DNA from: Helicobacter sp. MIT 99-5507
GTDB taxonomy: Bacteria; Campylobacterota; Campylobacteria; Campylobacterales; Helicobacteraceae
Length of the DNA stretch: 64,000 nucleotides
Direction: 5' to 3'
Assembly (NCBI RefSeq): GCF_003364295.1
Contig: NZ_NXLO01000001.1
Span: 1-64,000 of the forward strand
In this document: positions 1,631 to 42,074 of the stretch, piece by piece
Numbering within the stretch: position 1 is the first letter of the stretch
Layout of the letters: each line of letters starts with the position of its first letter
Translations under genes and position numbers: made by a program
Notes under the pieces: model-generated
The model's database searches: none
Told to the model about the DNA's origin: nothing
What the model saw: the letters and a program-made list of their open reading frames with translations, nothing else

Positions 1631-1634
1631 AGCT

Positions 1635-3071: not shown

Positions 3072-3100
3072 TCATTCTCCTTTATTTTGTGATTATGAAG

Positions 3101-3699: not shown

Positions 3700-3760
3700 T
3701 AATTTTTATAGCTTTGATTGCAAAATCTTTTATACAATTTTGCAATATAAAGGAATATTT

Positions 3761-4090: not shown

Positions 4091-4126
4091 ATATTTTAAT
4101 AATGTTTATTTAAAAGCTAAATTTCT

Positions 4127-5338: not shown

Positions 5339-5422
5339 TGCCAGATTCCAAAATTTAAGGTTTTGAGAGGTTTTTGATTAGTTTTGTATAAGTAAAGATG
5401 GTTTAATAGGATTAGTAGATAA

Positions 5423-12802: not shown

Positions 12803-12859
12803 AATATGCCTTGATAAGAATTTACCTTATATCCTTGATATTTGATATAAATTTTTTAT

Positions 12860-13972
12860 TTAATTTTGCTGAGCACATCCTACACGATTTCTACCATTTC
12901 TTTTTGCTATATATAATCCTTCATCAGCTTTTTTTAGTAGATCTATATAATTTTGCATTGTATCATCTCTTGCTGCTACGCCAATACTTACACTTGCGCT
13001 AAAACATTGTTTTGTAAAGGTTAATCTAATTTGTTCTACTTGTTTTCTTATGTGTTCTGCGAGTTTTAATGTATGTAATAGATTTGTGCTATGTGATAAT
13101 ATTACAAATTCATCACCACCTAATCTACATATAAAATCATCATTTCTAATTGCATTTTTTATAGTATTTGCAACTATCTGCAATATTTCATCTCCAGATT
13201 TATGCCCTTCTGTATCATTTATATGTTTAAAATTATCTGCATCTATCATAATACAAGTTATCGTGGTATTATTATCATGCACTTTTTTCCACTCATTTTT
13301 TAGATATGCCAAAGCAGCTCTTCTATTTCCTAACTTTGTTAAATTATCAGTTAGTGCCATAGTTTTTAATATATTATTTGATTGTTCTAATTCTTTTGTT
13401 CTTAATTTTACTCGTTCTTCTAGGGATTTATTTAGCATTATTAGTTTGTTATTCATATTTATTGTTCTCATAAATAGCTGATTTATAGCAAACAATAATG
13501 GACCTATGTCTTTTTCTGTATCATTATAAATAGTTTCATATGCTGTTTTTGGATCTTGACCTTCTTGTATTGCTTTGATTTGTCTTGCTAGGACTTTATC
13601 TGTTCCAAGAATATGAATAAAGAGCCAATTTGATAAAAAGTGAAATAATTCCTCATAGCTTATAAAATTATTTTGTATATTTTCAAATAGTTGTGTTCCC
13701 TCTTTTATAAACATCTCATGAGCTCTTTTATGATAATTTGCATGCCTTGGATCTACATTTGCTTTTTCCATCTCTTTTTCTTCATCTTTAAAATGCTCAT
13801 CAGCATATTTAGTGATTTTATTAAATATGTCGTTTAATTCTTCTTGAGATAACTTATTATTTTCCTGAATGCTTGTCCCAAAATCATTAATCAAATTCAC
13901 CAAATTCTTATGTTGGTTATCAATTAAATCTATATTAGTTTCATAGTTTTCATTCCATTGAAATATAAGCAC
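12860..13972 (-). CDS. Bacteriohemerythrin-GGDEF diguanylate cyclase
   Basis: 370 aa. Residues 1-130 are a hemerythrin domain with the di-iron ligand pattern in order: H21 (DNQHKNL), H60 and E64 (EHFKDEE), HxxxH (ANYHKRAH), then HxxxxD (HILGTD). A linker and coiled coil follow, then a GGDEF domain with intact GGDEF and an RxxD inhibitory site exactly five residues before it (RNDD-FICRL-GGDEF). The likely role is oxygen- or redox-controlled c-di-GMP synthesis in the cytoplasm. No EAL partner is adjacent. It lies 57 bp upstream of the autotransporter gene in the same direction. Confidence 0.92.
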   Translation of the reverse strand: MLIFQWNENYETNIDLIDNQHKNLVNLINDFGTSIQENNKLSQEELNDIFNKITKYADEHFKDEEKEMEKANVDPRHANYHKRAHEMFIKEGTQLFENIQNNFISYEELFHFLSNWLFIHILGTDKVLARQIKAIQEGQDPKTAYETIYNDTEKDIGPLLFAINQLFMRTINMNNKLIMLNKSLEERVKLRTKELEQSNNILKTMALTDNLTKLGNRRAALAYLKNEWKKVHDNNTTITCIMIDADNFKHINDTEGHKSGDEILQIVANTIKNAIRNDDFICRLGGDEFVILSHSTNLLHTLKLAEHIRKQVEQIRLTFTKQCFSASVSIGVAARDDTMQNYIDLLKKADEGLYIAKRNGRNRVGCAQQN

Positions 13973-27326: not shown

Positions 27327-27401
27327 GCGGGAATAGCTCAGTGGTAGAGCACAACCTTGCCAAGGTTGGGGCCGCGGGTTCGATCCCCGTTTCCCGCTCC
27401 A
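27327..27401 (+). tRNA. tRNA-Gly (anticodon GCC)
   Basis: Acceptor GCGGGAA pairs with TTCCCGC; the D-loop has AGCTCAGTGGTAGAGC, the anticodon loop is CTTGCCAAG, the T arm GCGGGTTCGATCCCCGT. CCA is encoded. First gene of a four-tRNA operon. Confidence 0.97.
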
Positions 27402-27417
27402 AATATAAAATAATGTT

Positions 27418-27505
27418 GCCCGGGTGGTGGAATTGGTAGACACAAGGGACTTAAAATCCCTCGGATATTGCTTCCGTGCCGGTTCAAGTCCGGCCTCGGG
27501 CACCA
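27418..27505 (+). tRNA. tRNA-Leu (anticodon TAA)
   Basis: Acceptor GCCCGGG / CTCGGGC, long variable arm as in class II tRNAs, anticodon loop ACTTAAAAT reading TTA/TTG leucine codons, T arm GGTTCAAGTCC, encoded CCA. Confidence 0.97.
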
Positions 27506-27512
27506 TATTTAT

Positions 27513-27587
27513 GGCGACATAGCCAAGTGGTAAGGCATGGGCCTGCAAAGCCTTGATTCCCCAGTTCGAATCTGGGTGTCGCCTCCA
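27513..27587 (+). tRNA. tRNA-Cys (anticodon GCA)
   Basis: Acceptor GGCGACA / TGTCGCC, anticodon loop CCTGCAAAG, T arm CCAGTTCGAATCTGG, encoded CCA after discriminator T. Confidence 0.97.
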
Positions 27588-27605
27588 AAATAATAGAATC
27601 TTACT

Positions 27606-27693
27606 CGGGAGATGGCTGAGTGGTTGAAAGCGGCGGTCTTGAAAACCGTTGAGGGTAACACCTCCGGGGGTTCGAATCCCTCTCTCCCGGCCA
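27606..27693 (+). tRNA. tRNA-Ser (anticodon TGA)
   Basis: Acceptor CGGGAGA / TCTCCCG, anticodon loop TCTTGAAAA, extended variable arm (class II), T arm GGGGTTCGAATCCC, encoded CCA. Last gene of the tRNA operon. Confidence 0.97.
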
Positions 27694-27961: not shown

Positions 27962-28777
27962 CTACAATCTTTCTAATATAATTTTATCTTCCATAAAATC
28001 ATTATAAATTTCTTTATTTATTTGTGATTTAGAAAACGCAATGAAGTAATTATTTTTTACATCTTGTTTATTGTATAAAAGTTGTTTTTTTGTATTAAAA
28101 TCAAGTATTATTCCGCCACTTTCTCTTAAAATAATATCACTTGCTGCGATATCCCACTCTTTTGTCCCATTAAATCGTGGATAAATATCGGCTTTTCCTT
28201 CTGCAATAGAACATATTTTTAGTGATGAACCAAGTGTTTGTTTTATTAATTTATATTTTTTTATAAAATTATCTACATTTTTTGTGCTATGGAATCTACT
28301 ATCAAGTGCTATTATAGCTGTTGTATCTTTTTGACTATAAATCCTTATTGCATTATCAATGATATTAGAATCTTCTAATACATAAGCTCCATTTTTTTCC
28401 AATGCAAAATACATTTTTTTTAATGCTGGTGCATATACTACACCAAGTATTGGTATATTGTGCTTTAATAAAGCTATATTGATTGTCCATTCATTATTTT
28501 TTGATATAAAATCTTTTGTCCCATCTAGCGGGTCTATAAGCCATAAATATTCTTCATTTTTTCTTTTACTATAATCTAATATATCTTCTTCAGAATTAAT
28601 TTTAAAAGAACTAATAGCTTGCAAATTATGAGTAATTATTCTATTAGATTCTATATCAGCTTTTGTTAATGGAGAATCATCATCTTTTTTTATAAAACTT
28701 GTATCGCCATAGTATTTTAATACTATTTCTCCTGCCCTAAAGGCTATATTGATTACATTATTTAGCAAATCTTTCAT
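27962..28777 (-). CDS. cysQ: CysQ-type 3'(2'),5'-bisphosphate nucleotidase at the end of the phosphoramidate island
   Basis: 271 aa. Inositol-monophosphatase fold with the CysQ pattern: DDDSPLTKADIESNR, metal-binding EED, IDPLDGTKDFISKNNEWTIN, then GSSLKICSIAEGKADIYPRF and EWDIAASD. CysQ normally removes the 3'-phosphate of PAP left by sulfotransferases. Here it overlaps the nucleotidyltransferase by four bases (ATGA) and is the last gene of the operon. I infer that it clears the 3'-phosphorylated cytidine nucleotide released by the phosphoramidate transferases. I know of no such gene in the C. jejuni MeOPN locus. Family assignment is firm; substrate is inference. Confidence 0.9.
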   Translation of the reverse strand: MKDLLNNVINIAFRAGEIVLKYYGDTSFIKKDDDSPLTKADIESNRIITHNLQAISSFKINSEEDILDYSKRKNEEYLWLIDPLDGTKDFISKNNEWTINIALLKHNIPILGVVYAPALKKMYFALEKNGAYVLEDSNIIDNAIRIYSQKDTTAIIALDSRFHSTKNVDNFIKKYKLIKQTLGSSLKICSIAEGKADIYPRFNGTKEWDIAASDIILRESGGIILDFNTKKQLLYNKQDVKNNYFIAFSKSQINKEIYNDFMEDKIILERL

Positions 28778-29520
28778 AGTTTTGTTTCCAAATCCGCAAT
28801 AGAATCTATCTCTATCCAGCCTCTATTGATAAAAACTGGCTCTATATTATTAAATGTATTTATTATTTCTTGCAAAAAACTAGTCATATACATATTATAA
28901 AAATCCTTTCCATCATAGATTCTGCTTTTATCCAAACTATCATAAAAATCAATCATTGTTGTTATGAAATTATGTGATATTTTAAATAACCCTATATATT
29001 GTCCTTCTATTTCATCAATAGAATCTACTTTTTTGCCTATTTCTATGATTTTATTATTTTTGATTTTTAAACTTTCTGCATCACTTAATACATCTTCAAA
29101 TCTATCATTCCACAACTCTTTCCAATTTTTATCAACAATAACACCAAAATCACCATCATAGTTTTTTAATTTTTTTATAATTTCACTTTTGTATATAATA
29201 TCTGCATATGTGATTATTAAATCTTGTTTATCTTTTGCACAAGATTCTAGAAATTCTCTTGCACAAAACATAGTCCATACCATATTTGTATTTTCAAATC
29301 TATCATTGATATAAAATTTATTAATATTTATATATTGCTTTAAAACATTAGATAAATATCCGCCAATAATACCTATATCAGTGATATTATTTTCTTTTAA
29401 TGCCTCTAGCTCATAATCAATAATTGATTTATTATTATATTTCACCATACATTTTGGAATATCATTTGTTAGTGGTGCAAGTCTCGTGCCTTTTCCTGCT
29501 GCTAATATTAAAGCTCTCAT
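28774..29520 (-). CDS. Nucleotidyltransferase, Cj1416-like (CTP:phosphoglutamine cytidylyltransferase)
   Basis: 248 aa. Starts with the nucleotidyltransferase signature MRALILAAGKGTRLAPLTNDIPKCMVKYNNKSIIDYEL and has the metal-binding YADI motif (residue ~90). On sequence alone it could be a LicC-like phosphocholine cytidylyltransferase or sugar-1-phosphate enzyme. Its place between the amidotransferase-like hydrolase and the island's other MeOPN-type genes matches Cj1416 of C. jejuni, which makes a CDP adduct from phosphoglutamine. An AAAGGAT RBS overlaps the previous stop. Specificity is inferred from context. Confidence 0.85.
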   Translation of the reverse strand: MRALILAAGKGTRLAPLTNDIPKCMVKYNNKSIIDYELEALKENNITDIGIIGGYLSNVLKQYININKFYINDRFENTNMVWTMFCAREFLESCAKDKQDLIITYADIIYKSEIIKKLKNYDGDFGVIVDKNWKELWNDRFEDVLSDAESLKIKNNKIIEIGKKVDSIDEIEGQYIGLFKISHNFITTMIDFYDSLDKSRIYDGKDFYNMYMTSFLQEIINTFNNIEPVFINRGWIEIDSIADLETKL

Positions 29521-29522
29521 TT

Positions 29523-30110
29523 CTATCCTTTTATATTTTGTAAAAAAGATTCTAAAATATCTCTACTTGGAATACTTAATATTTTTTCTCGCTCGATATG
29601 CCACATCATTCCAAAAATAGGAAATTTTTTATGTTTAAAAGATTCTATTGTATCATCATCTGCTTTTGCTGTGATTTCCAAAGTATTTCCTAATTTTGTA
29701 ATACAATAATTATGAAACGAATTGACTTTGTATGTTTGATTTTTAAATTTTATTGTATGTTGTTTATTTACATGGTTTGGCATTTTTTGTAATGTAGATT
29801 TAAAATAATACGCCAGAATCTGAGCACCTCTACATACACCAAGTATCGGGATATTAGATTTTATGCAATATTTAATGATATTTTTTTCATATTTATCTCT
29901 TAATATGCTTAGATTATTTGGATTTAGATGTGATAAGTCATTTCCACCACTAAATATAACACCATTGATATTATATTTTTCTATAGGTTTTGTATAACTA
30001 AGCGGTATAAAATCAGTATCACTTAATAATTCTCCCCACTCTAGGCTCAAAGCTTCCCTAATTTCATAATAAGTGCTATTTTGTTCTAATCTTTGAGTGA
30101 TACCTATCAT
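29523..30110 (-). CDS. Class I amidotransferase-fold hydrolase, Cj1417-like (gamma-glutamyl-CDP-amidate hydrolase)
   Basis: 195 aa, glutamine-amidotransferase class I fold. Nucleophile elbow GVCRGAQ around residue 95; catalytic His and Glu in MMWHIERE near residue 178; NGVIFSGGNDLSHL is the oxyanion strand region. In the MeOPN pathway this enzyme removes glutamate from the CDP-glutamyl adduct, leaving cytidine diphosphoramidate. A generic gamma-glutamyl-GABA hydrolase is the alternative, but the neighbours on both sides argue for the MeOPN role. ATG overlaps the kinase stop by four bases. Confidence 0.85.
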   Translation of the reverse strand: MIGITQRLEQNSTYYEIREALSLEWGELLSDTDFIPLSYTKPIEKYNINGVIFSGGNDLSHLNPNNLSILRDKYEKNIIKYCIKSNIPILGVCRGAQILAYYFKSTLQKMPNHVNKQHTIKFKNQTYKVNSFHNYCITKLGNTLEITAKADDDTIESFKHKKFPIFGMMWHIEREKILSIPSRDILESFLQNIKG

Positions 30111-32428
30111 AATATAAATACTTGATTATTAAGTGAATCTATTGTTAGTTTATTTGCATTTTTGTATGTTTTAAATCTATCTTCACCTACACCAATTACT
30201 GCTGGCAGCGATAATTCAGAACATCGTATCGCCATATGTGAATTTGCTCCACCATAGCATGTTATTAGACCTGCAATATTTTTGGTAAATAGATAATCAT
30301 ATCCTGGGTCTGCAGAATCTATCAAAACAATTTTATTTTCTAACTCTACATCACTTTCTAATGCAATTTTTGCTGTAATGATTTTTTGTGTAATAAAATT
30401 TGGTTGTGATTGCAGACTACTAAAATACAATATATCATTGCTATTTATTATCAATGGAGGCAGCTTTATTGCTTGTGTGACTTTATATTCTTCTTTATGT
30501 CTTTGTATTTCATTTCTAAATTTTTTGCTAGGAGGATCTTTGTATATTGTTGATTGCAAAGATAATATATTATTAATATCAAGGTGTGATAAATCCTCTT
30601 TGCTGATATTTAGCTCTTTCCCAAAAAGAGCGATAAAATCAAGTGTGCTTGATAGTAATTTTGTAAATTTAAATTTTGCTAACTCTCTTCCTTCTATTAC
30701 GATTCTAAAAAAATCAAATAATTCTTTTGCACTTATTTGGATTCCATTTTGCATAAGGATTGTGTCTAATTCACTTTCTTTTTGCTTACTTAGCCTAAAA
30801 ATATTATCTTGTTTTATAGTAGTATTATTTGTTGTGTTTGAGAAATAAATATCAAATGCCTCTTTATAACAAGGAGAAAGAATATTATAGCTTCCAGCAC
30901 GTAAATGTCCATATTTGTCTAAAAATTCTTCTTTTTTGATACTATTATTTTGCATTTTCATCATATCAATTGATAATTCTTTATTAATTGTTTTTAGAGA
31001 TAATAAAAATTGATTTTTTTCTAATACACTAAAAAACCCAATATCAACTAATGAATTTATCATTTGCATTGCTACAAATGCAGCCCTTGCGATTCCTGCA
31101 AATGGAAGTGTCCCAAATCTCTTGCAATCTTCAATAAGCCAATATATTTTATCTATAATATTTAGATTAGATTGCATTATAGAATCAAATCTACTCTCAA
31201 GCAATGCTATTTTGTTTAGATCTTTTAAATATAGACCACTTTTGGAATCTAAAATATTATTTGTAAGCGTTAATAAGCTAAATTCGATTCGCTTTAGCTC
31301 ATTTTGATTAAAGCCATGTTTTTTTAATATCTGCAATTTATTTGGTAGATTAAAATCATAACATGAAAAAACTATATCAAATTCAATTTTATCATGTAAG
31401 TGTGGCTTGGATTCTAATGCTTTTAGATAATAATTCACTAGCTTATTTGCTATTGTTTCATCTAGTTTTTTTGGTATAAACGAATTAAATGATAATCTTA
31501 CATCAATGTAGGGCACGCCCAAAAATGAATACATCAATGGGTGAGATCTTAGATTTCTATATCCATAATTATCCCTTTGATACGCCCAAATATTATCAGT
31601 CACTAATTCTTTATATAAAGATAAAGCAAGTCTTTTTGGTTTTAGTCCTATTATCTCTGCTGGATTCCAATCTGGCATAACACCAAAAATCGTTTTATCA
31701 CCTAATATATGCGGATGTCGTAATGATAGATTATCTATTTGTGTTTGCAATCGCTTTAAGATTCCACTATTTATTGCATTAAAATAGTTATTTTTATTTT
31801 TCATTACAAGTGGGCGGACTTGTAAAATATATAAATCACCATTTTTTGTAAATGCAAATTCTACATCTAGGGCATTATTATCAAAAATAGATTCTAATTC
31901 TAATAGTGTTTTAATAATTTTATTTATTTTCTTATTTTTTGATTTATGTTCTCTAAAAACTATGATATTTGTTAGATTTGAAGTTTGACCACTTGTTACA
32001 CTATCGCTACTACCGCTTTCATCATAGCTTATACAAAAATATGGTGCATAATTATCTTTATCTACACTAAATGCAACGCCGCATATATCGATAGATTCTA
32101 ACATCGGCTGCACTAAAATGTAATTATCTTTACAACCCCACCCCATGGAGGATTTTACTTTTCTTAGTGCATCTTTTAGTGCTTTTGTATCATTTGTATT
32201 GATATTTGGTATGCTCAAAAATGCCCCAGCATTAGAGGTAGAATCTGTATCTTCATTGCTTGCAGAGCTTCTTAATATTACCTTATTGCCTAATTTTTGT
32301 ATATTACTAATTATATTTTTATTATCAATATCATCTACCATTACCAAAGGGAGAATCTTTGCATTTTTAATAATTGTAGATAGATTTTTTAGATTCTCTC
32401 CTTTGTTTATAAATGATAATTTTTTCAA
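30107..32428 (-). CDS. PEP-synthase/PPDK-like kinase, Cj1418-like (L-glutamine kinase)
   Basis: 773 aa, close to the size I recall for the C. jejuni enzyme. The N-terminal ATP-grasp domain of the PPDK family shows KVILRSSASNEDTDSTSNAGAFLSI and VEFAFTKNGDLYILQVRPLV (residues 50-215). A long unfamiliar middle follows, and the C-terminus is the phosphohistidine domain TCYGGANSHMAIRCSELSLPAVIGVG with the swivelling His. Cj1418 phosphorylates the amide of glutamine, forming the P-N bond and committing to phosphoramidate. Start is TTG 32428 after AAAGGGGA. Not ordinary PEP synthase, whose C-terminal TIM-barrel domain is missing. Confidence 0.88.
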   Translation of the reverse strand: MKKLSFINKGENLKNLSTIIKNAKILPLVMVDDIDNKNIISNIQKLGNKVILRSSASNEDTDSTSNAGAFLSIPNINTNDTKALKDALRKVKSSMGWGCKDNYILVQPMLESIDICGVAFSVDKDNYAPYFCISYDESGSSDSVTSGQTSNLTNIIVFREHKSKNKKINKIIKTLLELESIFDNNALDVEFAFTKNGDLYILQVRPLVMKNKNNYFNAINSGILKRLQTQIDNLSLRHPHILGDKTIFGVMPDWNPAEIIGLKPKRLALSLYKELVTDNIWAYQRDNYGYRNLRSHPLMYSFLGVPYIDVRLSFNSFIPKKLDETIANKLVNYYLKALESKPHLHDKIEFDIVFSCYDFNLPNKLQILKKHGFNQNELKRIEFSLLTLTNNILDSKSGLYLKDLNKIALLESRFDSIMQSNLNIIDKIYWLIEDCKRFGTLPFAGIARAAFVAMQMINSLVDIGFFSVLEKNQFLLSLKTINKELSIDMMKMQNNSIKKEEFLDKYGHLRAGSYNILSPCYKEAFDIYFSNTTNNTTIKQDNIFRLSKQKESELDTILMQNGIQISAKELFDFFRIVIEGRELAKFKFTKLLSSTLDFIALFGKELNISKEDLSHLDINNILSLQSTIYKDPPSKKFRNEIQRHKEEYKVTQAIKLPPLIINSNDILYFSSLQSQPNFITQKIITAKIALESDVELENKIVLIDSADPGYDYLFTKNIAGLITCYGGANSHMAIRCSELSLPAVIGVGEDRFKTYKNANKLTIDSLNNQVFIL

Positions 32429-32438: not shown

Positions 32439-33218
32439 TTAATTTACTTTTTTTGCACTCCAGCATCTAGTAGTGTATTTTATATTAAAGCTACTTGGAA
32501 GCCTATGTTTCATCTGGTATGCAATTTTTTCAAATAATTCATTTCCACTTTTTTGCTCTAAATCCCAATATGGGTTTTTCACGCTTTTCCATGCATTGAT
32601 ATAGTTTTCAACACTTTGATGAAAATAAAAATCTTGCTCTATATATATTATATTATCAAATAGATCTTTTCTGCTTTCAATTATTGGACGTTGGTCTTCT
32701 CTACGGACACCTCTAGTGTAGTTTGGCACTAAATCCATTATAATTTCTTCTGCGATTTCTTGAATAGGATCATTTAAATCTCTATGATTCCACATGCAAG
32801 AAAAATATCCATCATCTTTTAGGATTCTATGTGTTTCTTGCAATGCCAAATCTCTATCCATAACATTAAAACTACTTCCAAAAGTAACCCAATCAAAAGC
32901 TTTATTTTCTAATGTGCTTTCAATACCAATTGCTCTTACCCATTTTATATTTTGATTCTTTGTTCGTTCAATTCCAATTTCTCTCATCGCATCATTTGGC
33001 TCTACCGATGTAACTTCACAGCCCCGCTCTAATAGCATTATGCTTAAATTACCAGTTCCAGCACCAATATCTGCTACTTTTATTTTAGAATTCCCCCCCC
33101 CCATTTTGCTAACAAGATATGCAAGCATATCAATACAACTAGGTGCATAATTTGGTCTATATTCATAAAATTTAGCGTGTTTTGTGTAATCCCAATTTTG
33201 TTCTACTATTTTTTTCAT
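32439..33218 (-). CDS. SAM-dependent methyltransferase, phase-variable (Cj1419/Cj1420-like)
   Basis: 259 aa class I methyltransferase. Motif I is VADIGAGTGNLSIML, followed by SVEPNDAMR and the post-II strand FDWVTFGSSF. Its paralogue is the next gene upstream. A G10 tract encodes MGGG just before motif I and is in frame as sequenced, so the gene is ON; slippage would truncate it before the SAM site. In C. jejuni the equivalent methyltransferases are associated with O-methylation of the phosphoramidate. Acceptor here is inferred. Confidence 0.85.
   Translation of the reverse strand: MKKIVEQNWDYTKHAKFYEYRPNYAPSCIDMLAYLVSKMGGGNSKIKVADIGAGTGNLSIMLLERGCEVTSVEPNDAMREIGIERTKNQNIKWVRAIGIESTLENKAFDWVTFGSSFNVMDRDLALQETHRILKDDGYFSCMWNHRDLNDPIQEIAEEIIMDLVPNYTRGVRREDQRPIIESRKDLFDNIIYIEQDFYFHQSVENYINAWKSVKNPYWDLEQKSGNELFEKIAYQMKHRLPSSFNIKYTTRCWSAKKVN
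33093..33102 (-). repeat. C10 (coding-strand G10) tract in the methyltransferase gene
   Basis: Ten C on the plus strand. Reads in frame as M-G-G-G-N ahead of the SAM-binding motif. Confidence 0.88.
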
Positions 33219-33238: not shown

Positions 33239-34012
33239 TTAATTATTAACCTTTTTGGCACTCCAAGCTCGAATCTTATATGGTATCTCAATAATATCTA
33301 GATTCTGTATTTTATCTTTTATCATAGCCATTATTTTATTCCATCTTTCTTCCCCTGCTTGTGCTTGTATATCATTTACTGATTGCCATGCCCCTAAATA
33401 TCTTTCTTTACTCATCATCTCAATATAATCACATTCCATAAAGAAACAATCTATAAAATCATTTGTTGATACTAGAATCTCCTCCCATTTTTTTGTATTT
33501 TGTGAGCCAGAACTAACTCTATTTAATTCTGGAATAATATTTTTTATCTCCTCTTCTATTTGATAAAATATAGAATCTTTTATTATATTTCTAGGATTCC
33601 ATATCGCTGTGAAATATCCTCCATTTTTTAAGATTCTTCTAAATTCTGGCAATGATTTTGTATGGTCAGTCCAATGAAATGATGATGCCATTATCACCCA
33701 ATCAAATTCATTTGCTTTCATTGTTGTATTTTCACCATCACCTTTAAACCATTTTATATTTGTATTTTTTGTATATTCTATGCCTTCATTTCTCATCGCA
33801 TCATTTGGTTCTACTGCACTGACATTAAAACCAAAATTTGATAGCATTTTTGTAAGCTTTCCTGTTCCTGCGCCAACTTCGCATATTTTGAAATCTTTTA
33901 TATCTTTGTTAAATGTATTTACACATAAAAATAACTTTTCTAATAACATGGCACTATATGCAGGTCTATTGATATAATATTTTGCTACTTGTGTGAAATC
34001 ACCTTGTTTCAT
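33239..34012 (-). CDS. SAM-dependent methyltransferase (second paralogue, no G tract)
   Basis: 257 aa. Motif I is ICEVGAGTGKLTKML, then SAVEPNDAMRNEG, FDWVIMASSFHWTDH and a C-terminus ending RAWSAKKVNN, nearly the same ending as the neighbouring paralogue (RCWSAKKVN). The two share the whole domain order and so arose by duplication. This copy lacks a homopolymer, giving one constant and one switchable methyltransferase. Probably methylates phosphoramidate or a sugar of the decorated glycan. RBS GGAG precedes the ATG. Confidence 0.85.
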   Translation of the reverse strand: MKQGDFTQVAKYYINRPAYSAMLLEKLFLCVNTFNKDIKDFKICEVGAGTGKLTKMLSNFGFNVSAVEPNDAMRNEGIEYTKNTNIKWFKGDGENTTMKANEFDWVIMASSFHWTDHTKSLPEFRRILKNGGYFTAIWNPRNIIKDSIFYQIEEEIKNIIPELNRVSSGSQNTKKWEEILVSTNDFIDCFFMECDYIEMMSKERYLGAWQSVNDIQAQAGEERWNKIMAMIKDKIQNLDIIEIPYKIRAWSAKKVNN

Positions 34013-34019: not shown

Positions 34020-35192
34020 TTATTCTCCTTTGAAATGATTTAAAAATCTTTTTGTATATGTAAAGCTATCAAATATCATCGGGGCTTCTTTTTTGATATA
34101 AAAAAGTTCATCATCAATATCTTTTGCTAATTGTTTTGAGAATGCAAGCAAATCATTTTTATCATCCAATAAAAAATCAATAATTTCATCTTCATTAAAC
34201 ATAAGATTATTGTGTTTTTCTATCATCAAGAGAGCATAATCTATATATTTATAAGCTTCTATGAGAGCTTTAGAAACTAATTCTTCTTTTGTATCTTTTG
34301 TGAATGATACTAAACAAAGAGGATAATCTTGGTAATTATCAATAATTATGTCATCTTTTAAAATATAATAATCTTTATTTATACAATCTTGTTTTTTTGC
34401 TACATTGCCATTCATATCTATTTCTTTTAAACTTTTATTAGTTAGTCTTGATACAGTTGATATTGCAAATTCCCCCCCCCCATCTATGCTAAAAATATGA
34501 GGAAAACATCTAGGAAAAATAGAGCCTTTTATTACACTCTCACTGCTGCAAATTTCTTTTGTGTTATTGTAAGGGAGTTTAAATCGCTTTATAAAATTAT
34601 TTAGTGTAGTTGGCATTTCACTTTCTCCTATATCTTTCATTGTTAGATATGTAATATCTAGTTTTAAATGATCTATTAGTTTTCTTTGTGAGCTAAAATA
34701 AAACATTAAATGTGAAATACCTTTTATAATTTCAATTAATTTATCTTGTGCATCTTTTTTATTATTTATCTTTGAAATACTATGAAACATAGTGACATTT
34801 ATATTGCTTTTTATGACAGAAATAGGATCTCGAACTATTTGATATACAGGGACTTTTTTGGTGCATGTTTGTAGAATCTTGTGGCTTTGATTATTTAGTG
34901 GGGCTTTATCTAAAACCATACCGCTAAAATTTCTATAAAATATAAATGGTCTTACTATTTCATAACTCCATATTTCTTCTGGTCTTGCTCCTATCTTTTT
35001 TAGATAATGAAACATCGCAGTCATTCCTAGTCCATGTCCGCCAAGGAGAATATAGTCATAATTTTGTGGATGAGGCAATAGATTGCAAGAGCTAATAACT
35101 TGCTTTGCAAACGGCAATCTATCAAAAAAAGCGTGGATTCTACCGCCTTTTAGCAATTTGAAAGCTGATTTTATTTTTCTTATTATTATCAA
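34020..35192 (-). CDS. Phosphoramidate transferase-like protein E (sulfotransferase-like, G10 tract)
   Basis: 390 aa from TTG 35192, which overlaps the upstream stop as TTGA and has GGAG upstream; the longer frame to 35228 would overlap 40 bp. Core motifs shared by the five paralogues: GGHGLG (residues 51-56, a P-loop-like 5'-phosphate site) and VRDPIS (120-125, like the sulfotransferase 3'-phosphate site). A G10 tract encodes GGG in SIDGGGEF and is in frame. C. jejuni Cj1421/Cj1422 MeOPN transferases are the expected relatives. Soluble cytoplasmic enzyme; acceptor sugar unknown. Confidence 0.8.
   Translation of the reverse strand: MIIIRKIKSAFKLLKGGRIHAFFDRLPFAKQVISSCNLLPHPQNYDYILLGGHGLGMTAMFHYLKKIGARPEEIWSYEIVRPFIFYRNFSGMVLDKAPLNNQSHKILQTCTKKVPVYQIVRDPISVIKSNINVTMFHSISKINNKKDAQDKLIEIIKGISHLMFYFSSQRKLIDHLKLDITYLTMKDIGESEMPTTLNNFIKRFKLPYNNTKEICSSESVIKGSIFPRCFPHIFSIDGGGEFAISTVSRLTNKSLKEIDMNGNVAKKQDCINKDYYILKDDIIIDNYQDYPLCLVSFTKDTKEELVSKALIEAYKYIDYALLMIEKHNNLMFNEDEIIDFLLDDKNDLLAFSKQLAKDIDDELFYIKKEAPMIFDSFTYTKRFLNHFKGE
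34472..34481 (-). repeat. C10 (coding-strand G10) tract in transferase E
   Basis: Ten C on the plus strand; encodes the GGG of IDGGGEF. Same protein position as the tract in transferase B. Confidence 0.88.
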
Positions 35193-36367
35193 GATTCTAT
35201 CTCCAAAAATTTCTTGTATTCTAACCAATTTTGAAATATATGTGAAGATTTTTCTTTTATTATGCTTGTTTCATGCTCTAGGAATGACTTGATTTTTTTA
35301 TATACATTTGGGTTATGTTTGAAGTATCTAAATAATATTTCTATATCTATTTTATATTTATTGTAGATATTTTCAATTTTTATAACTTCATAAAGATATT
35401 GTTCTACTTTTTTGTTTATCTCATTTAACAAATTATCATTAATTTGTATTTTTTCTTTGCTTGAGATATTTAACTTCCTATTTTTGAATTTTTTTGATAT
35501 ATAATTTTTGGTTATATAGAATCTAGAATCAAGTTTATTATATATATTTTTTTGTATATCAAATACACTAAAATCATCATCAAATGGCGATACCATAAAC
35601 TCTATACCATCAATATAAAATAAATGCGGGAATGATCTTGTAAATATATCATTAACATTGATATAAACTGCATTATCATCTGATGCCTTAATATTAATGT
35701 GTTTTGCTATATCATGCATTGTTGATTTTGCAATTTCTCCTTTTAGCATAGCTGTATCTATGAATTTTATATCCGTGATTTTATCTTTTATCATATTTAC
35801 ATTGCTAGTAAAGCCAATTACTGAAAACATGAATCTATCATCATTTATGATATTAATACAATCTTTTAAATCATTAATTTTATTTTTTGTTATATTTGTA
35901 TAGATTGTATGATTTATCGCAGATACTATTGCTAATATAGGATCTCTTACTAGGCAAATAGCTGGAGCTTGTTTTTTAAAATGTCTATTTAAATACTCTT
36001 GTATATCTTTATTATAACCATCTAGTGTAACTCCCCAAGCTCCATATCCATATCCTCTAAATAGCTCCCAATATATTCTTAGTGCTCTTTTATTATCAAG
36101 ATATTCTTTATGCAGGGCTATAAGTGTTAGTGGTAAGATATTGTTATGTTTCTTGATGTATGGGGGGGTAGTGCATTTAGATATATAATACAATAAAGAA
36201 TGATAGCCAACTCCATGCGTCCCAACTAGAAAGAAGCTATAACTCTGTGGTATTGGTAATATATCATCTAGTGATGCTGGAATTATTCTTAATAATATAG
36301 ATCTTATTATTAATTTGTATTCATTATTTTTTATACGATTGATTAGTGTATTTATTTTATTCATCAT
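35189..36367 (-). CDS. Phosphoramidate transferase-like protein D (no long tract)
   Basis: 392 aa. Motifs GTHGVG (49-54) and VRDPIL (140-145), then FIDTAMLKG and a C-terminal helix ending in the family pattern NWLEYKKFL. It is the most diverged of the five paralogues and the only one without a G8-G10 tract; it has just a C7 run coding TTPP near residue 67. It overlaps both neighbours (11 bp with C, 4 bp with E), so translation is coupled. May be the constitutively expressed member. Function inferred from the family. Confidence 0.78.
   Translation of the reverse strand: MMNKINTLINRIKNNEYKLIIRSILLRIIPASLDDILPIPQSYSFFLVGTHGVGYHSLLYYISKCTTPPYIKKHNNILPLTLIALHKEYLDNKRALRIYWELFRGYGYGAWGVTLDGYNKDIQEYLNRHFKKQAPAICLVRDPILAIVSAINHTIYTNITKNKINDLKDCINIINDDRFMFSVIGFTSNVNMIKDKITDIKFIDTAMLKGEIAKSTMHDIAKHINIKASDDNAVYINVNDIFTRSFPHLFYIDGIEFMVSPFDDDFSVFDIQKNIYNKLDSRFYITKNYISKKFKNRKLNISSKEKIQINDNLLNEINKKVEQYLYEVIKIENIYNKYKIDIEILFRYFKHNPNVYKKIKSFLEHETSIIKEKSSHIFQNWLEYKKFLEIES
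36162..36168 (+). repeat. G7 run (coding-strand C7) in transferase D
   Basis: Seven G on the plus strand, encoding the two prolines of CTTPPY. Opposite strand bias to the other tracts, and shorter, so switching should be rare. Confidence 0.6.
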
Positions 36368-37487
36368 TCACCTTTAAGAATTTTGTATAGTAAGTCCAAG
36401 ATTCTACAATATTTGGTGCATATTTTTTTACATTAGATATTTCATAATCTAGTAATTTTCTAAATTTTTTATATAGTATTTGATCGTTTTTAAAATATTC
36501 CAATACATCATTTTCATCAATCTTTGATTGGTCATAGATTTTAAATTTATCACTTAAATCTTTTAGATACTTAATTGCATATGAATTAATAGAATCTTTT
36601 ATTTCTTTGTTTATATGTTTTATTTTTATATTTTTTCCAATTAGACATATTGCAATTTTACGTTTTAAATTTATATCATCAATGATATTAATGATTTGGA
36701 ATCTCTTATGCAATGTATTTTCAAATGGAAGTATTTTTATATTAAAGATTTTGCCATTTATATCTATATCAAAATCTTTTTCTATATTTAATGCCAAAGA
36801 ATCTGCTATTTTTCTAGTGAAAAATTCTTTATCTATATCTATTTTATTAATGCCAATTTTGCTGCAGCATTTTTTAATCGTATTATAAGCATTTTGTTTT
36901 GATAGATCATTCATATCAATATATATTAGCTCTTTTGTGATATGTTTAAATTGATTTGGAGATGTTGTAAAGATGAAGTGATGAGGCATATCATCATAAG
37001 CTTTTAGATATGATAATAATGTATTTTTTATTAATACCTCATTCCCCCCCCCCATACCATTTACAATATTATCTGCTAACATCATATTTATTCCACCTCT
37101 AATGATACTAATAGGATCCCTAACCAAGCAAAATACAGGAACTTTTTTGTTTAGTTTTGAAATAAAATATAATCCACCATTGCAGTGATTTATATCTCTA
37201 TCACATACAATCCCATAAATCTTTCTATAGCTAAAAAAGCAAGTCCTATCAATTGCAGCAATATCAAATTTTCTCATTGGATATGCATTTACGATATTCA
37301 TAAAATGCCAAAATGCATTTCTTCCAGTTCCATGTGATGCTAGCATTATGTATCTATATCTTTGTGGTTTTAGTGTATTGCTCCAAAGTGATATTTTTTT
37401 CCCTAAGAATCCTGCAATAATCTTATCCCACCAACCATACTCAATGCATATTCTAATAGTATTTATTTTCTTTTTTATGATATTCAT
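36357..37487 (-). CDS. Phosphoramidate transferase-like protein C (G10 tract)
   Basis: 376 aa. Motifs ASHGTG (50-55) and VRDPIS (122-127), LIYIDMNDLSKQNAYNT, and the C-terminal YAPNIVESWTYYTKFL. A G10 tract encodes GGG at residues 146-148 (NGMGGGNE), in frame as sequenced. It is closest to protein B: 53-bp blocks at 36880-36932 and 37989-38041 differ at two bases. The ATG overlaps the upstream stop (TAATG). Role as in C. jejuni MeOPN transferases is inferred from motifs and locus. Confidence 0.8.
   Translation of the reverse strand: MNIIKKKINTIRICIEYGWWDKIIAGFLGKKISLWSNTLKPQRYRYIMLASHGTGRNAFWHFMNIVNAYPMRKFDIAAIDRTCFFSYRKIYGIVCDRDINHCNGGLYFISKLNKKVPVFCLVRDPISIIRGGINMMLADNIVNGMGGGNEVLIKNTLLSYLKAYDDMPHHFIFTTSPNQFKHITKELIYIDMNDLSKQNAYNTIKKCCSKIGINKIDIDKEFFTRKIADSLALNIEKDFDIDINGKIFNIKILPFENTLHKRFQIINIIDDINLKRKIAICLIGKNIKIKHINKEIKDSINSYAIKYLKDLSDKFKIYDQSKIDENDVLEYFKNDQILYKKFRKLLDYEISNVKKYAPNIVESWTYYTKFLKVNDE
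37044..37053 (-). repeat. C10 (coding-strand G10) tract in transferase C
   Basis: Ten C on the plus strand, about 20 codons after the VRDPIS motif. Same region of the protein as the tract in transferase A. Confidence 0.88.
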
Positions 37488-38719
37488 TACATTGCCTTAA
37501 ATTTTTTATAATAAATCCAAGATTCTACAATATTTGGCGCATAATCTTTTACTATAGATATTTCATCTCTAAATACTGCTTTATATTGTTTTTTTAGCTC
37601 TTGATTATTGTTTAGATAATCTATTATTTGCTCTTCATTGATTAGGTTGTTTTTCATATCTTTTATTATTTGAAGTATTGTGTTGTAATATGAATTTAGA
37701 TGAAATGTTATTAAATCTATTAAATTTTTATCATAATTTTTCACATCATTATTGCTATATACTTGCAATCCATACAAAAGCTTTTCTTTGAAAAATATAT
37801 CACTTACATTAATCATATTTTTTTCTTTTAAAAATACTTGTTGTGTGGTTGAAAATATGAGATTCCCCCCCCCATCAATATTAATTGTAAGTGGGATTAA
37901 TGTATTTACATCACCATATAATTTATGGGTAAAAAAATCTTTATTTGTTGGGTTTTTGAAGTTTAGCTTTTTAGATAATTTTTGCATTGTATTATAAGCA
38001 TTTTGGTTTGATAGATCATTCATATCAATAAATATTAGCTCACTAATTTTATTTTTTAAGATTCTATACAATGATGAAAACAGCACGATTTCTTTTATTT
38101 TATTGTCATTTTTATAGCTTGTGGTGGATATCAAATAAGCCAATAAATCTAAGCTAGGCTTTTTAGATTCTACTATTTCTCCATTTTTAAAATCTCTATA
38201 GCAGATTCTGTGATTTATAGAATCTAGAGCATTTTTGGTTATTTTATAAGCATTATTTTTTCTTATTATTTTTGTGTGCAATTCTAATGTGCTATTTTTA
38301 CTTATTGTTCTTAAATTTATATGGGATTTTAAAATACTAATAGGATCTCTTACTAAGATGATGGCTGGAATCTTTTGAGTGATTTTTTCTATTATTTTAT
38401 TTTCGCCCTCTACATTGAGTTCAGCAAAAGTTATACCACATATTTGCTTTTTTGGTTTGAATAATAAATGCGTCAAATACATATAACATCGTTTATAATA
38501 GCCTTCAAATGCATAATACCAATTTACCCTAACATTGCAATATTGTAAAAATAATAAAAACGCATTTCTTCCTAATCCATGCGAACCAATGATAATAAAG
38601 TCAGCTTTTTTTGGAAACTTGATATGGAAAATATCCATCACTTTTATAATAACTTTATAAAAATACTTATCAATGCATTTTTTAAATGGCTTTAAAATAA
38701 ATTTTAAGATTCCTCTCAT
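37487..38719 (-). CDS. Phosphoramidate transferase-like protein B (G9 tract)
   Basis: 410 aa, longest of the five. Motifs GSHGLG (45-50) and VRDPIS (123-128), LIFIDMNDLSNQNAYNT, and YAPNIVESWIYYKKF near the end. A G9 tract encodes IDGGGN and is in frame. AAAGGGGAT precedes ATG 38719. There is a 50-bp gap to protein A, the only sizable gap in the island's transferase run. Sulfotransferase-like fold is inferred from the two phosphate-binding signatures; the acceptor is unknown. Confidence 0.8.
   Translation of the reverse strand: MRGILKFILKPFKKCIDKYFYKVIIKVMDIFHIKFPKKADFIIIGSHGLGRNAFLLFLQYCNVRVNWYYAFEGYYKRCYMYLTHLLFKPKKQICGITFAELNVEGENKIIEKITQKIPAIILVRDPISILKSHINLRTISKNSTLELHTKIIRKNNAYKITKNALDSINHRICYRDFKNGEIVESKKPSLDLLAYLISTTSYKNDNKIKEIVLFSSLYRILKNKISELIFIDMNDLSNQNAYNTMQKLSKKLNFKNPTNKDFFTHKLYGDVNTLIPLTINIDGGGNLIFSTTQQVFLKEKNMINVSDIFFKEKLLYGLQVYSNNDVKNYDKNLIDLITFHLNSYYNTILQIIKDMKNNLINEEQIIDYLNNNQELKKQYKAVFRDEISIVKDYAPNIVESWIYYKKFKAM
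37865..37873 (-). repeat. C9 (coding-strand G9) tract in transferase B
   Basis: Nine C on the plus strand, encoding the GGG of IDGGGN. Confidence 0.88.
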
Positions 38720-38769
38720 ATATCCCCTTTTTTTGAGTAAAAGGTAAATTCTACACTTTTTTAAACAAA

Positions 38770-39843
38770 TTAAAAAGATTCTAAAAAATTATTATAATAT
38801 TTCCATGATTGTATGATTTTTGGTGTATTTTCTTTTATCGTTGTTAATTCATAATCTAAATATTTTTTTATATATTTTTTCATTTCTATATTATTATTAA
38901 AATATTCAAGTATGATTTTTTCAAATCCTCCATTATCGCAAAAATCTTTTAGTATATAAAATTTATTTTCATTATCTTTAGAATCTATATAAAAATGCTT
39001 GTGAATATTCATAGAGGAATAGTTTGCATCAAAATCATTTATTTTATTATTAAAATTTATATCAAGAATATTTGCTATATTTTTCATTGTATCAAATGAT
39101 TTTAGTGGTGTGCTTATATCGTTTGTATCTATGAAATACAGACTTTTTGTTGCATTTGTTAATTGTAAATTTAGTGAAGTAAAACAAAAAAATGGAATGA
39201 TTTTGCTTTTTGTGATTGTTTGGGTTAGGAAAGTGATTATTTCATTGATAGTGTTATATATTTCATTTTTTAATACATTATCAAGATATGTGATCTCTTG
39301 CTGCCCCCCCCTATTTAGTGCGATAGTATTTGTTTTTATTCCATATACTAATTTTGGCATTAAAGCATTATGAGTATGTGTCCTAAAAATACTAATAGGA
39401 TCTCTAACTAGGCATAATATTGGCACTTTATGATTTAATTTTGATAATATATTTTTTCTTGTATTATCAATATATGCTTTTTCTATACTAAGTCCATAAA
39501 ATTTGCCTTTGTAATTTTGCGCTTGTTTTCTTGCGAGTAATACATAATCACTTCTAGCAAACATATTATCCAAAGTCATAGGATTTGCCCCTAGATTCTG
39601 CATATATTTGATAAACGCTACAAACCCAACTCCATGGCTACCAGCAATGATATAAGAATAATCTTGTGGCATACTAAAGAATCTCGTCCAATGGCTAGAT
39701 ACAAAAATATTATATTTAAATTGATGATTATTATAGAATCCACCTTGTATATGTGGTAAAAACCATGTCAAGATTCTTTTAAAAATATATTTAAATTCTT
39801 TATTTTTAATATGTTGAAATAATCTTTTTATCTTTGTATTCAT
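38770..39843 (-). CDS. Phosphoramidate transferase-like protein A (G8 tract)
   Basis: 357 aa. Motifs GSHGVG (68-73) and VRDPIS (146-151), LYFIDTNDIS, and the C-terminal NTPKIIQSWKYYNNFL. A G8 tract encodes NRGGQ (residues 178-180), in frame as sequenced. The ATG directly follows the cysC-like stop (TAAATG), so the donor-activating kinase and first transferase are translated together. Length and motif spacing agree with the other four paralogues. Transfer of MeOPN (or another group from a 3'-phosphonucleotide donor) is inferred. Confidence 0.8.
   Translation of the reverse strand: MNTKIKRLFQHIKNKEFKYIFKRILTWFLPHIQGGFYNNHQFKYNIFVSSHWTRFFSMPQDYSYIIAGSHGVGFVAFIKYMQNLGANPMTLDNMFARSDYVLLARKQAQNYKGKFYGLSIEKAYIDNTRKNILSKLNHKVPILCLVRDPISIFRTHTHNALMPKLVYGIKTNTIALNRGGQQEITYLDNVLKNEIYNTINEIITFLTQTITKSKIIPFFCFTSLNLQLTNATKSLYFIDTNDISTPLKSFDTMKNIANILDINFNNKINDFDANYSSMNIHKHFYIDSKDNENKFYILKDFCDNGGFEKIILEYFNNNIEMKKYIKKYLDYELTTIKENTPKIIQSWKYYNNFLESF
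39304..39311 (-). repeat. C8 (coding-strand G8) tract in transferase A
   Basis: Eight C on the plus strand, encoding R-G-G about 27 codons after VRDPIS. Confidence 0.85.
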
Positions 39844-40371
39844 TTATTTTACCCATTGTATTTTTTGAGTTTTAATATATTTTAATATTTGCTTTGCTTT
39901 TAAATCCGCATTATTTTGCACATTATTATCTATAGTGATATTTGGTGTTGGAATATCGTATTTTATATCAATACCAATTACATCTTTTACCCTGCCTTCT
40001 ATTGCACCAGTATATAATCCTTTTTGATCTCTTTTTATCAATTCTTCCATATTGCATTCAATATATACTTCAAGATAATTTTTAAATATATTTCTATTGT
40101 TTTTATATACTTCATTAAATAATGAAATTGTTGATGCAATCACTACAATATCTTGTTGTGATAATAAACTACAAAGCCTAGCTCTATTAAAAGCTACCTC
40201 TATCCTAGAATCTTTATCAAATTTATTATTACTAAAAATTTCTCTAAATCCATCACCATCTAAATATACTATATTTGGTATTTCTTGTTTTATGATATTG
40301 TATAGTTCTTTTGATATGGTGCTTTTACCGCTTCCAGATAGTCCATTTATCCATATAACAAGTCCGCTCAT
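39844..40371 (-). CDS. cysC: APS-kinase-fold protein, Cj1415-like (cytidine diphosphoramidate kinase)
   Basis: 175 aa. Walker A is INGLSGSGKSTISKEL and the substrate motif is LDGDGFREIF, where canonical APS kinases have DGDNxR. Databases name such genes cysC, but C. jejuni Cj1415 phosphorylates the 3'-OH of cytidine diphosphoramidate instead of APS. No ATP sulfurylase genes (cysD/cysN) are in the window, and all other MeOPN enzymes are, so I favour the Cj1415 role. The product, a 3'-phosphonucleotide donor, explains why the transferases look like sulfotransferases. ATGA overlap with the flippase gene. Confidence 0.87.
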   Translation of the reverse strand: MSGLVIWINGLSGSGKSTISKELYNIIKQEIPNIVYLDGDGFREIFSNNKFDKDSRIEVAFNRARLCSLLSQQDIVVIASTISLFNEVYKNNRNIFKNYLEVYIECNMEELIKRDQKGLYTGAIEGRVKDVIGIDIKYDIPTPNITIDNNVQNNADLKAKQILKYIKTQKIQWVK

Positions 40372-42074
40372 TTTACCTCTATTTTAATTGGGCATCGCTC
40401 AATTGTGCTTAATCTATGTGCTATGATAAGCAATGTTTTATCTTTTGATACATCATATATTTCATCCATTATTTGAGATTCTGTATCATTATCCAATGCA
40501 CTTGTTGCCTCATCAAGCACTAATATTTCTGGATTATTATACAAAGCTCTAGCTATTGCAATCCTTTGCTTTTGCCCACCACTTAGTTTTATTCCACCAT
40601 CACCTACAATGGTATTTATTCCTTGATTTTTTTCTAAAAAATCCCAAATTCTTGCTTTTTTACATACTTCAATAATCTTATCTTTATCTATTTTGTCATT
40701 TAATACAATATTTTCTGCAACACTCCCATCAAATAAAAATACACTTTGTGGAATATAGCCAATTTTTTTTCTCCAAGACCTAAGATTTGAATTATCAAGT
40801 AATTTACCATCAATCCTCATCTCACCACTTTTTGGTTTATATATCCCAATGATTAAATCAACCAATGTGCTTTTTCCTGCTCCACTTTTGCCAATAAATG
40901 CTATTTTATCGCCTTTATTTATCACTAGATTAAAATCTTTTATAATAGGTTTATTTGTTAGATATTCAAATGTTATATTTTTTAATTCTACTTTTTCATT
41001 AAATTCTATTTTTTCATTATCTTCAGCTTCTGTATGATATATCATATCTTCATATACAATATCTAAGCCTCTTTTGTGGAATCTAGACATATTATAACTT
41101 GCTAGAATCTTATTTACAGAAGGCAAGATTCTATATAATGCTAGTGCATACATTGATATTATTGGTATTACAGCTGCTGCGTCATTATATTTTATTAGTA
41201 TATATACAACAGATGCTGTTAATACGCAAAATCCTATTGTCTCAAGTATAAATTTTGGAAGTGGCAGTAAGGTTTGGGTGATAATTTCTGTGCTTACTTT
41301 TTCTAAAGAGGCTTTGTTGAATGCTTCAAGGACATTTCCTTGCTCTCCTTTTAGTTTTATAATCTTAAAATTTCCAAGCGTTTTTGTGATGATTTTTAAA
41401 AATTGCTCGCTTAGTTCTGCTTGCATCTCGCCTTTTTTTCGTATTGTTTTTGATATAGTTTTTGTAATAAGCAAGACATTTATCCCAAGTATAAATGTAA
41501 GCACAATAGTCATTTTCCAGCTAATTATCAATAGCAGTGAATACATAAGTGTTATTGTGATGATTTCTGAAGCCATTAATAAAATTTGTTGTATAAATTG
41601 CGATGCTTGCATGGCTTCAGTCGTGATATTTCGCCTAATTGTATCTGCATTTTTATTTGTAAAATCCAAATAGCTAAGCTCTGTTGTTTTACAAAATAAT
41701 CTATATGCAAAAAAATGATATTTTTTGAATGCAAATCTATTTAGTGCGTAGGAATAAGCGATATTTGCAATTGCTCTAAAAACATAAAATACAATCATTG
41801 TAAAGCCAAACCATACAATGAATTCTGTTGTATTGCTAGCATTTAAAAAATCATATAAATATTTAGATACTTTATTTTCAAAAATCATATTTGGATTTGA
41901 TGCAAATGTGATAAATGGCATAATGATACTAATCCCGATTGTTTCAATGATTGAGATACTAAGTGTAGCAAAAAGTAAAAATATCAATATGACTTTATCA
42001 CGCCTTGACATCAAATATCGAATTTTTGTTAAATCGCTTATATTTGAATATGATTTTATTTTATTTTTTTTCAT
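40368..42074 (-). CDS. PglK/WlaB-like ABC flippase (fused membrane and ATPase domains)
   Basis: 568 aa. Residues 25-320 hold six membrane helices; the C-terminal ATPase has Walker A IGKSGAGKST, Q-loop IGYIPQSVFLFDGS, signature LSGGQKQRIA, Walker B ILVLDEATSALD and H-loop IAHRLST. Helix regions (SIIETIGISIIMPFI, FYVFRAIANIAYSYALNRF) resemble Campylobacter PglK, which flips lipid-linked heptasaccharide. The C-terminus ends about 15 residues after the H-loop, shorter than PglK. As first gene of the island, it suggests the decorated glycan is built on a lipid carrier. MsbA-like lipid export is the alternative. Confidence 0.85.
   Translation of the reverse strand: MKKNKIKSYSNISDLTKIRYLMSRRDKVILIFLLFATLSISIIETIGISIIMPFITFASNPNMIFENKVSKYLYDFLNASNTTEFIVWFGFTMIVFYVFRAIANIAYSYALNRFAFKKYHFFAYRLFCKTTELSYLDFTNKNADTIRRNITTEAMQASQFIQQILLMASEIITITLMYSLLLIISWKMTIVLTFILGINVLLITKTISKTIRKKGEMQAELSEQFLKIITKTLGNFKIIKLKGEQGNVLEAFNKASLEKVSTEIITQTLLPLPKFILETIGFCVLTASVVYILIKYNDAAAVIPIISMYALALYRILPSVNKILASYNMSRFHKRGLDIVYEDMIYHTEAEDNEKIEFNEKVELKNITFEYLTNKPIIKDFNLVINKGDKIAFIGKSGAGKSTLVDLIIGIYKPKSGEMRIDGKLLDNSNLRSWRKKIGYIPQSVFLFDGSVAENIVLNDKIDKDKIIEVCKKARIWDFLEKNQGINTIVGDGGIKLSGGQKQRIAIARALYNNPEILVLDEATSALDNDTESQIMDEIYDVSKDKTLLIIAHRLSTIERCPIKIEVK

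Follow-up and report, generated by a model that had tools for sequence, protein, structure and literature searches.

Here, we identify a CysQ-family 3'(2'),5'-bisphosphate nucleotidase as the product of the last gene of an operon for O-methyl phosphoramidate biosynthesis in Helicobacter sp. MIT 99-5507, located in a window of 64,000 nucleotides, i.e., the whole stretch of DNA that was analysed. By analogy with the clearance of PAP in sulfation, the most likely substrate of this protein is cytidine 3',5'-bisphosphate, the by-product of the phosphoramidate donor, a reading that we consider probable. We infer the base of the substrate from the surrounding pathway and from the genome, which has no source of APS or PAPS. 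A limited literature search returned no paper on CysQ acting on cytidine 3',5'-bisphosphate (pCp) and none that treats CysQ, Campylobacter and phosphoramidate together, and the literature on capsule and cysQ (PMC2147049, PMC9612045) does not deal with the by-product step. The operon places a known enzyme family in a role for which no description was found in that search.

The cysQ reading frame starts with ATG and encodes 271 amino acids. TIGR01331 (bisphos_cysQ) is the top family for the protein, with a margin of more than 40 bits, and its score of 222.5 bits (E 6.5e-66) narrowly misses the curated cut-off of 228.8, by about 6 bits; HisN and IMPase/SuhB models match more weakly (99.7 and 61.6 bits, respectively), and PF00459 scores 170 bits. 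The AlphaFold2 model has a mean pLDDT of 93.5, and the closest structure in the PDB is CysQ of Bacteroides thetaiotaomicron (3b8b; Z 33.8, 250 residues aligned, 2.5 Å), followed by the yeast PAP phosphatase Hal2p (Z 31.2), with IMPase structures also near (Z about 29-30). The metal site of the FIG/IMPase fold is present (D41, E64, DPLDGT and WD). The metal and ligand motifs, i.e., EE63-64, DPLDGT82-87, H163, GSSLK183-187, YPR199-201 and WD208-209, are conserved, those of the metal site across both the phosphoramidate and the sulfate groups of CysQ in the alignment. Moreover, the protein has all three nucleotide-binding motifs that IMPases lack, SxxH (S160-H163), GSSLK and YPR, and these align with 3b8b and with Escherichia coli CysQ. 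The gene overlaps the upstream nucleotidyltransferase gene by exactly four bases (28774-28777), and downstream of it lie only four plus-strand tRNA genes (27327-27693). Thus, the family model, the predicted structure and the coordinates bear out the sequence-only reading of this gene as a CysQ-like last gene with a four-base overlap. It is the only Inositol_P (PF00459) gene in the 1.53-Mb genome, which is 99.97% complete. A scan of viral contigs with CysQ found no relatives, and a promoter and terminator scan gave the same counts as shuffled sequence.

From 5' to 3' on the minus strand, the operon encodes an ABC transporter, a CysC-type kinase, five transferase-like proteins, two methyltransferases, a glutamine kinase, an amidate hydrolase, a nucleotidyltransferase and CysQ (Table 1). 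In Campylobacter jejuni, Cj1415-Cj1418 convert glutamine, ATP and CTP into CDP-phosphoramidate 3'-phosphate (PMC11800397). The donor-making set is thus complete here by homology: the glutamine kinase and the hydrolase both score over their cut-offs, and the cytidylyltransferase and the CysC-type kinase match PF00483 and PF01583, respectively. The operon has the kinase, cytidylyltransferase, amidohydrolase, glutamine kinase and transferase-like proteins in common with the C. jejuni pathway (Cj1415-Cj1418, Cj1421/Cj1422); however, it encodes five transferase-like paralogues and ends with cysQ, whereas the C. jejuni locus lacks cysQ.

Table 1. Genes of the operon that ends with cysQ, with positions in the window
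Gene product	Position	Strand	Basis
CysQ-family 3'(2'),5'-bisphosphate nucleotidase (cysQ); proposed cytidine 3',5'-bisphosphate 3'-phosphatase	27962..28777	-	TIGR01331, PF00459, motifs, model
Nucleotidyltransferase, Cj1416-like (phosphoglutamine cytidylyltransferase)	28774..29520	-	PF00483 53 bits; operon position; homologues beside GlnK/GATase in other loci
Gamma-glutamyl-CDP-amidate hydrolase (Cj1417-like)	29523..30110	-	NF045546 251.1 bits, cut-off 250
L-glutamine kinase (Cj1418-like)	30107..32428	-	NF004508 1008 bits, cut-off 501; PEP-utilizer and PPDK_N domains
SAM methyltransferase, candidate for phosphoramidate O-methylation	32439..33218	-	PF08241
SAM methyltransferase	33239..34012	-	PF08241
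O-methyl phosphoramidate transferase-like protein 5	34020..35228	-	NF058596 77.9 bits, partial, cut-off 600; VRDPI; predicted PAPS-sulfotransferase fold
O-methyl phosphoramidate transferase-like protein 4	35189..36367	-	NF058596 72.8 bits; DUF2972; VRDPI
O-methyl phosphoramidate transferase-like protein 3	36357..37487	-	DUF2972 70.3 bits; VRDPI
O-methyl phosphoramidate transferase-like protein 2	37487..38719	-	DUF2972 83.6 bits; VRDPI
O-methyl phosphoramidate transferase-like protein 1	38770..39843	-	NF058596 87.1 bits; DUF2972; VRDPI
CysC-type kinase (Cj1415-like, cytidine diphosphoramidate 3'-kinase)	39844..40371	-	PF01583 104 bits; TIGR00455 apsK 106 bits, cut-off 138.7
ABC transporter, head of the gene run, 4-bp overlap with kinase	40368..42074	-	ORF; Walker A and LSGGQ motifs visible; homologue heads the same run in L030

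An alignment of all five transferase-like proteins (TRANSFERASES; 34020-39843) shows an invariant VRDPI motif and a common HGxG loop. Against the CJJ1420 family (NF058596), the transferase-like proteins score 72.8-87.1 bits, below the cut-off of 600, and the match is confined to roughly the final 60% of the model; judged by sequence, they are related to this family but diverged, and their acceptor and the exact transfer are putative. The VRDPI motif of DUF2972/CJJ1420-family relatives resembles the 3'-phosphate-binding motif of sulfotransferases. For the structure model of the protein encoded at 34020-35228 (m5c0af0a754c0; pLDDT 74.9), the best 50 matches found with VIA-align are all sulfotransferases (Z 9.0-12.1), many of them solved with bound PAP. 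Foldseek alone returned nothing significant for this model (best E 3.7e-3), and the sulfotransferase assignment comes from the VIA-align Z values together with the VRDPI motif. As modeled, the transferases fit enzymes that would recognize a nucleotide donor by its 3'-phosphate and leave behind a nucleoside 3',5'-bisphosphate.

We suggest that the operon supports a donor cycle, the first part of which follows the biochemistry of C. jejuni. The glutamine kinase, the cytidylyltransferase and the amidohydrolase would generate CDP-phosphoramidate, to which the CysC-type kinase would add a 3'-phosphate. Subsequently, the sulfotransferase-fold transferases would hand the phosphoramidate to a glycan, releasing cytidine 3',5'-bisphosphate, and CysQ would strip the 3'-phosphate from this by-product, yielding CMP and returning the nucleotide. 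PAP inhibits sulfotransferases and is removed by CysQ (PMC10638397); by analogy, CysQ may relieve product inhibition in the phosphoramidate pathway. This scheme is similar to that of CysQ, Hal2p and BPNT1 in PAPS pathways in the fold, the metal site, the GSSLK and YPR motifs, and the pairing with sulfotransferase-fold transferases and a kinase of the CysC family. It differs in that the gene lies in a cytidylyl-phosphoramidate operon, in a genome that lacks APS and PAPS synthesis, and in that the expected substrate is cytidine 3',5'-bisphosphate. The C. jejuni pathway has been characterised up to the 3'-phosphorylated donor, and the fate of the leaving nucleotide was not found in the literature searched. 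If CysQ clears the by-product, then the odd 3'-phosphate makes sense: the whole PAPS logic of kinase, sulfotransferase-fold transferase and bisphosphate phosphatase would be reused with a cytidine carrier, and transfer in vitro is predicted to need CysQ against product inhibition.

The distribution of cysQ among related genomes supports an association with this type of pathway. In the sample of 397 genomes from the class, the glutamine kinase scored over the cut-off in 75. Within the window's own family, CysQ was present in 41/45 genomes with the glutamine kinase versus 6/55 without it. Among 80 family genomes, 41 had glutamine kinase and CysQ, four glutamine kinase only, six CysQ only and 29 neither, which provides the survey of cysQ against Cj1418 homologues called for by the sequence-only reading. 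The association with the CysC-type kinase was tighter: in the same 80 genomes, 47 had both genes, four the kinase only, none CysQ only and 29 lacked both (Fisher 8e-18). Of 12 independent contrasts on the supported branches of a GyrA tree, CysQ changed in the same direction in about 10.3 and in the opposite direction in 0 (p about 0.002). Joint gain or loss of two genes could arise from physical linkage alone. All six CysQ-containing genomes without the glutamine kinase have a CysC-family kinase, which overlaps CysQ in four loci. CysQ, then, is tied more closely to the kinase that adds the 3'-phosphate than to the glutamine kinase. The proposal that CysQ matches the phosphoramidate pathway therefore holds as far as co-inheritance is concerned; however, the closer partner of CysQ is the kinase rather than the glutamine kinase, and the pair also occurs in apparent phosphonate operons. 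The kinase is present and CysQ absent in four genomes, i.e., G171, G343 and G321, in which the kinase is fused to the glutamine kinase, and G167. The last encodes a 317-amino acid NrnA-like DHH phosphoesterase (L236:5051-6004), for which no counterpart was found in the rest of the 45 family genomes checked; because NrnA enzymes hydrolyse pAp (PMC8268124), this protein may replace CysQ. Because three genomes with the glutamine kinase (G001, G159 and G254) have only a sulfate-type CysQ, the base specificity of CysQ may be loose.

Of the 41 family genomes that carry both genes, 28 have CysQ within 10 kb of the glutamine kinase; in three further family genomes, the contig is split and CysQ adjoins the cytidylyltransferase. 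Moreover, the hydrolase and the cytidylyltransferase have CysQ immediately between them in Sulfuricurvum (L086), in one MAG each of Campylobacterales (L098), Spirochaetaceae (L088) and Holosporaceae (L117), and in G176 (L048). These loci have independent gene orders and together span Campylobacterota, Spirochaetota and Pseudomonadota, and in a Patescibacteria MAG (L125) CysQ directly follows the glutamine kinase; several of the clusters outside the family are metagenome bins, for which host assignment may err. Outside Helicobacter and Campylobacter, 5/45 glutamine-kinase loci have CysQ in the cluster, as do 0/9 Campylobacter loci. One genome (G087) has two CysQs, one per pathway, in a sulfate locus (L026) and a phosphoramidate locus (L037). 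Clusters of glutamine kinase, amidohydrolase and cytidylyltransferase also occur in Lachnospiraceae, Pelagibacteraceae, Pseudomonas viridiflava, Planctomycetes, Bdellovibrionales, Fusibacter and others (L082-L129); given this reach well past Campylobacter, modification with phosphoramidate may be widespread.

The same type of CysQ is also found in four genomes without the glutamine kinase (G005, G014, G022 and G033), where it lies inside PEP-mutase operons (L010, L011, L012:4700-8427 and L013) that also encode a CysC-type kinase and a thiamine-diphosphate enzyme like phosphonopyruvate decarboxylase. In L012 the PEP mutase is fused to a cytidylyltransferase-like domain, in L011 and L012 the kinase frame overlaps CysQ, and L013 encodes a PntC-like nucleotidyltransferase-aminotransferase fusion. 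The kinases of these operons group in the kinase tree among the phosphoramidate kinases and not the sulfate kinases, and the five genomes with PEP-mutase frames of fused length and no kinase (G103, G161, G166, G190 and G197) all lack CysQ. The occurrence of kinase and CysQ in PEP-mutase operons suggests 3'-phosphorylated cytidylyl-phosphonate donors. Because all four genomes have a Sat-type ATP sulfurylase elsewhere, a sulfate role is possible for their CysQ. In PntC-dependent and PEP-mutase-dependent phosphonate tailoring, the phosphorus group is likewise activated by cytidylyl transfer (CMP-AEP; PMC6697681), and the four PEP-mutase operons share the CysC-type kinase and CysQ families with the window; by contrast, the window operon lacks PEP mutase. 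The words "kinase" and "CysC" do not appear in PMC6697681. We tentatively propose a general 3'-phosphocytidine donor cycle, in which a kinase would mark CDP-phosphoramidate or a cytidylyl-phosphonate, sulfotransferase-fold enzymes would use the donor and a dedicated CysQ would clear cytidine 3',5'-bisphosphate. Such a cassette, spread across several phyla, would serve both N-P and C-P surface modifications; the generalization is possible rather than probable. If CysQ clears the by-product, then the donor of those phosphonate operons that carry this kinase/CysQ pair is predicted to be a CMP-phosphonate with a 3'-phosphate.

The same CysC and CysQ pairing is known from sulfation, and a reading in which CysQ serves PAPS sulfation and the operon kinase is a true APS kinase has to be weighed. 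The pair recurs in sulfate loci (L025-L028 and L130) and adjoins ATP sulfurylase in G122, and the capsule locus of Campylobacter coli carries cysDN, cysC and cysQ (PMC2147049). The C. coli loci resemble the window operon in pairing CysC with CysQ for modification of a surface glycan; however, CysDN activates sulfate there, while the window operon activates phosphoramidate via CTP and carries the full phosphoramidate set. Family profile searches of the 99.97% complete genome found no match to PF01507 (CysD, CysH) or PF01747 (Sat), so it has no recognised route to APS or PAPS; the sequence-only reading had named a full sulfate-activation pathway elsewhere as what would speak against it, and none is present. 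Sulfate activation was rejected as the reason for cysQ in this genome, which lacks both ATP sulfurylase families (CysDN and Sat). The single PF01583 gene of the genome is the operon kinase, which scores below the apsK cut-off of TIGR00455, and in the kinase tree the APS kinases of sulfate loci fall together on a single branch with support 99, separate from the kinases of glutamine-kinase clusters. Seven more genomes with kinase and CysQ (G072, G128, G095, G308, G227, G235 and G071) likewise had no match to PF01507 or PF01747. Thus, the APS-kinase reading is already largely refuted and highly improbable. Similarly remote is the idea that the protein, as a member of the IMPase superfamily, dephosphorylates inositol or sugar phosphates to supply a glycan precursor: it accounts for the common PF00459 fold and the nearness of IMPase structures, but not for a TIGR01331 score far above that of the IMPase model, the CysQ-type GSSLK and YPR motifs or the tracking of a 3'-nucleotide kinase.

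The chief rival to by-product recycling is trimming of the donor, i.e., CysQ would strip 3'-phospho-CDP-phosphoramidate back to CDP-phosphoramidate and in that way act as a brake on the donor level. Gene linkage and context cannot separate the two roles, and CysQ is reported to convert PAPS to APS and so to act on PAPS as well as PAP (PMC2147049); however, yeast-type CysQ discriminated PAP from PAPS (PMC10638397), and keeping a futile cycle next to its own kinase across many lineages would seem more wasteful than recycling. We regard the donor brake as unlikely. Less plausible still is a general PAP phosphatase for adenosine 3',5'-bisphosphate from acyl-carrier-protein activation or RNA turnover, with an accidental place in the operon. 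Membership in the CysQ family agrees with such a housekeeping function, as do the formation of pAp in coenzyme A metabolism (PMC8268124) and the presence throughout Campylobacter of a diverged CysQ-like gene irrespective of the glutamine kinase. Against it, all 29 kinase-negative relatives lack CysQ despite the same need for acyl carrier protein, G087 keeps the CysQ of its phosphoramidate cluster besides the copy in its sulfate locus, and CysQ recurs within clusters in several phyla. Housekeeping PAP clearance is unlikely because relatives do without CysQ.

A candidate cytidine signature was considered in CysQ itself. In most relatives of the window CysQ, four residues near the ligand histidine and arginine differ from those of sulfate-locus CysQs. 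CysQs of phosphoramidate and phosphonate loci share D159, N203, G204 and, at position 162, F or in some cases H; these positions lie next to the conserved H163 and R201, which we take, by the annotation of Hal2p, to be nucleotide-contacting residues. With position 162 scored as F or H and some near-duplicates among the 52 rows from such loci, all four residues are present in 39/52 rows and at least two in 52/52, and none is present in ten rows from sulfate loci or in E. coli CysQ. A profile of the signature type separated 298 genomes into two score groups, at about 313 bits and more versus 272 and less. The sole high scorer without a known cluster, G122, was taken as a blind test. Its CysQ has the full signature and in the tree lies next to phosphoramidate CysQs from outside Helicobacter; however, the gene stands beside ATP sulfurylase and CysC, in a genome without the glutamine kinase. 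As the mark of a cytidine-specific subclass of CysQ, the signature failed in G122. The signature thus marks a lineage and is no proof of cytidine specificity. The G122 locus (L234:6578-9855) also encodes a pyruvate-kinase-like protein and a TauE-type permease and is surface-polysaccharide-like; the second CysQ of G122 is of the sulfate type.

A diverged CysQ-like gene that scores about 145-174 bits is present in all Campylobacter genomes searched (genus g22), with or without the glutamine kinase and not beside it, and in C. jejuni 11168 cysQ is annotated as Cj1681c (PMC9612045). The claim that the C. jejuni locus has no such gene is correct for the capsule locus; however, the genome has Cj1681c elsewhere, so that this part of the MeOPN chemistry is not simply missing in C. 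jejuni. If CysQ clears the leaving nucleotide, then Cj1681c is a candidate for the same step in C. jejuni.

Fusions of the CysC-type kinase were also observed. In L013 (4784-5773), the kinase is fused to a GNAT acetyltransferase domain, and L010 has a frame of equal length (11898-12872). The fused kinase adjoins the PntC-like nucleotidyltransferase-aminotransferase and a formyltransferase-like protein, and its target may be the amino group in aminoethylphosphonate. In three loci from genomes without CysQ (L015:7341-10211, L016:7557-10421 and L017:8246-11227), the kinase forms an N-terminal fusion with a diverged glutamine kinase. These loci have two uncharacterised ORFs between the amidohydrolase and the cytidylyltransferase, one of them weakly formyltransferase-like, and the L015 cluster also encodes PEP mutase and a thiamine-diphosphate enzyme.
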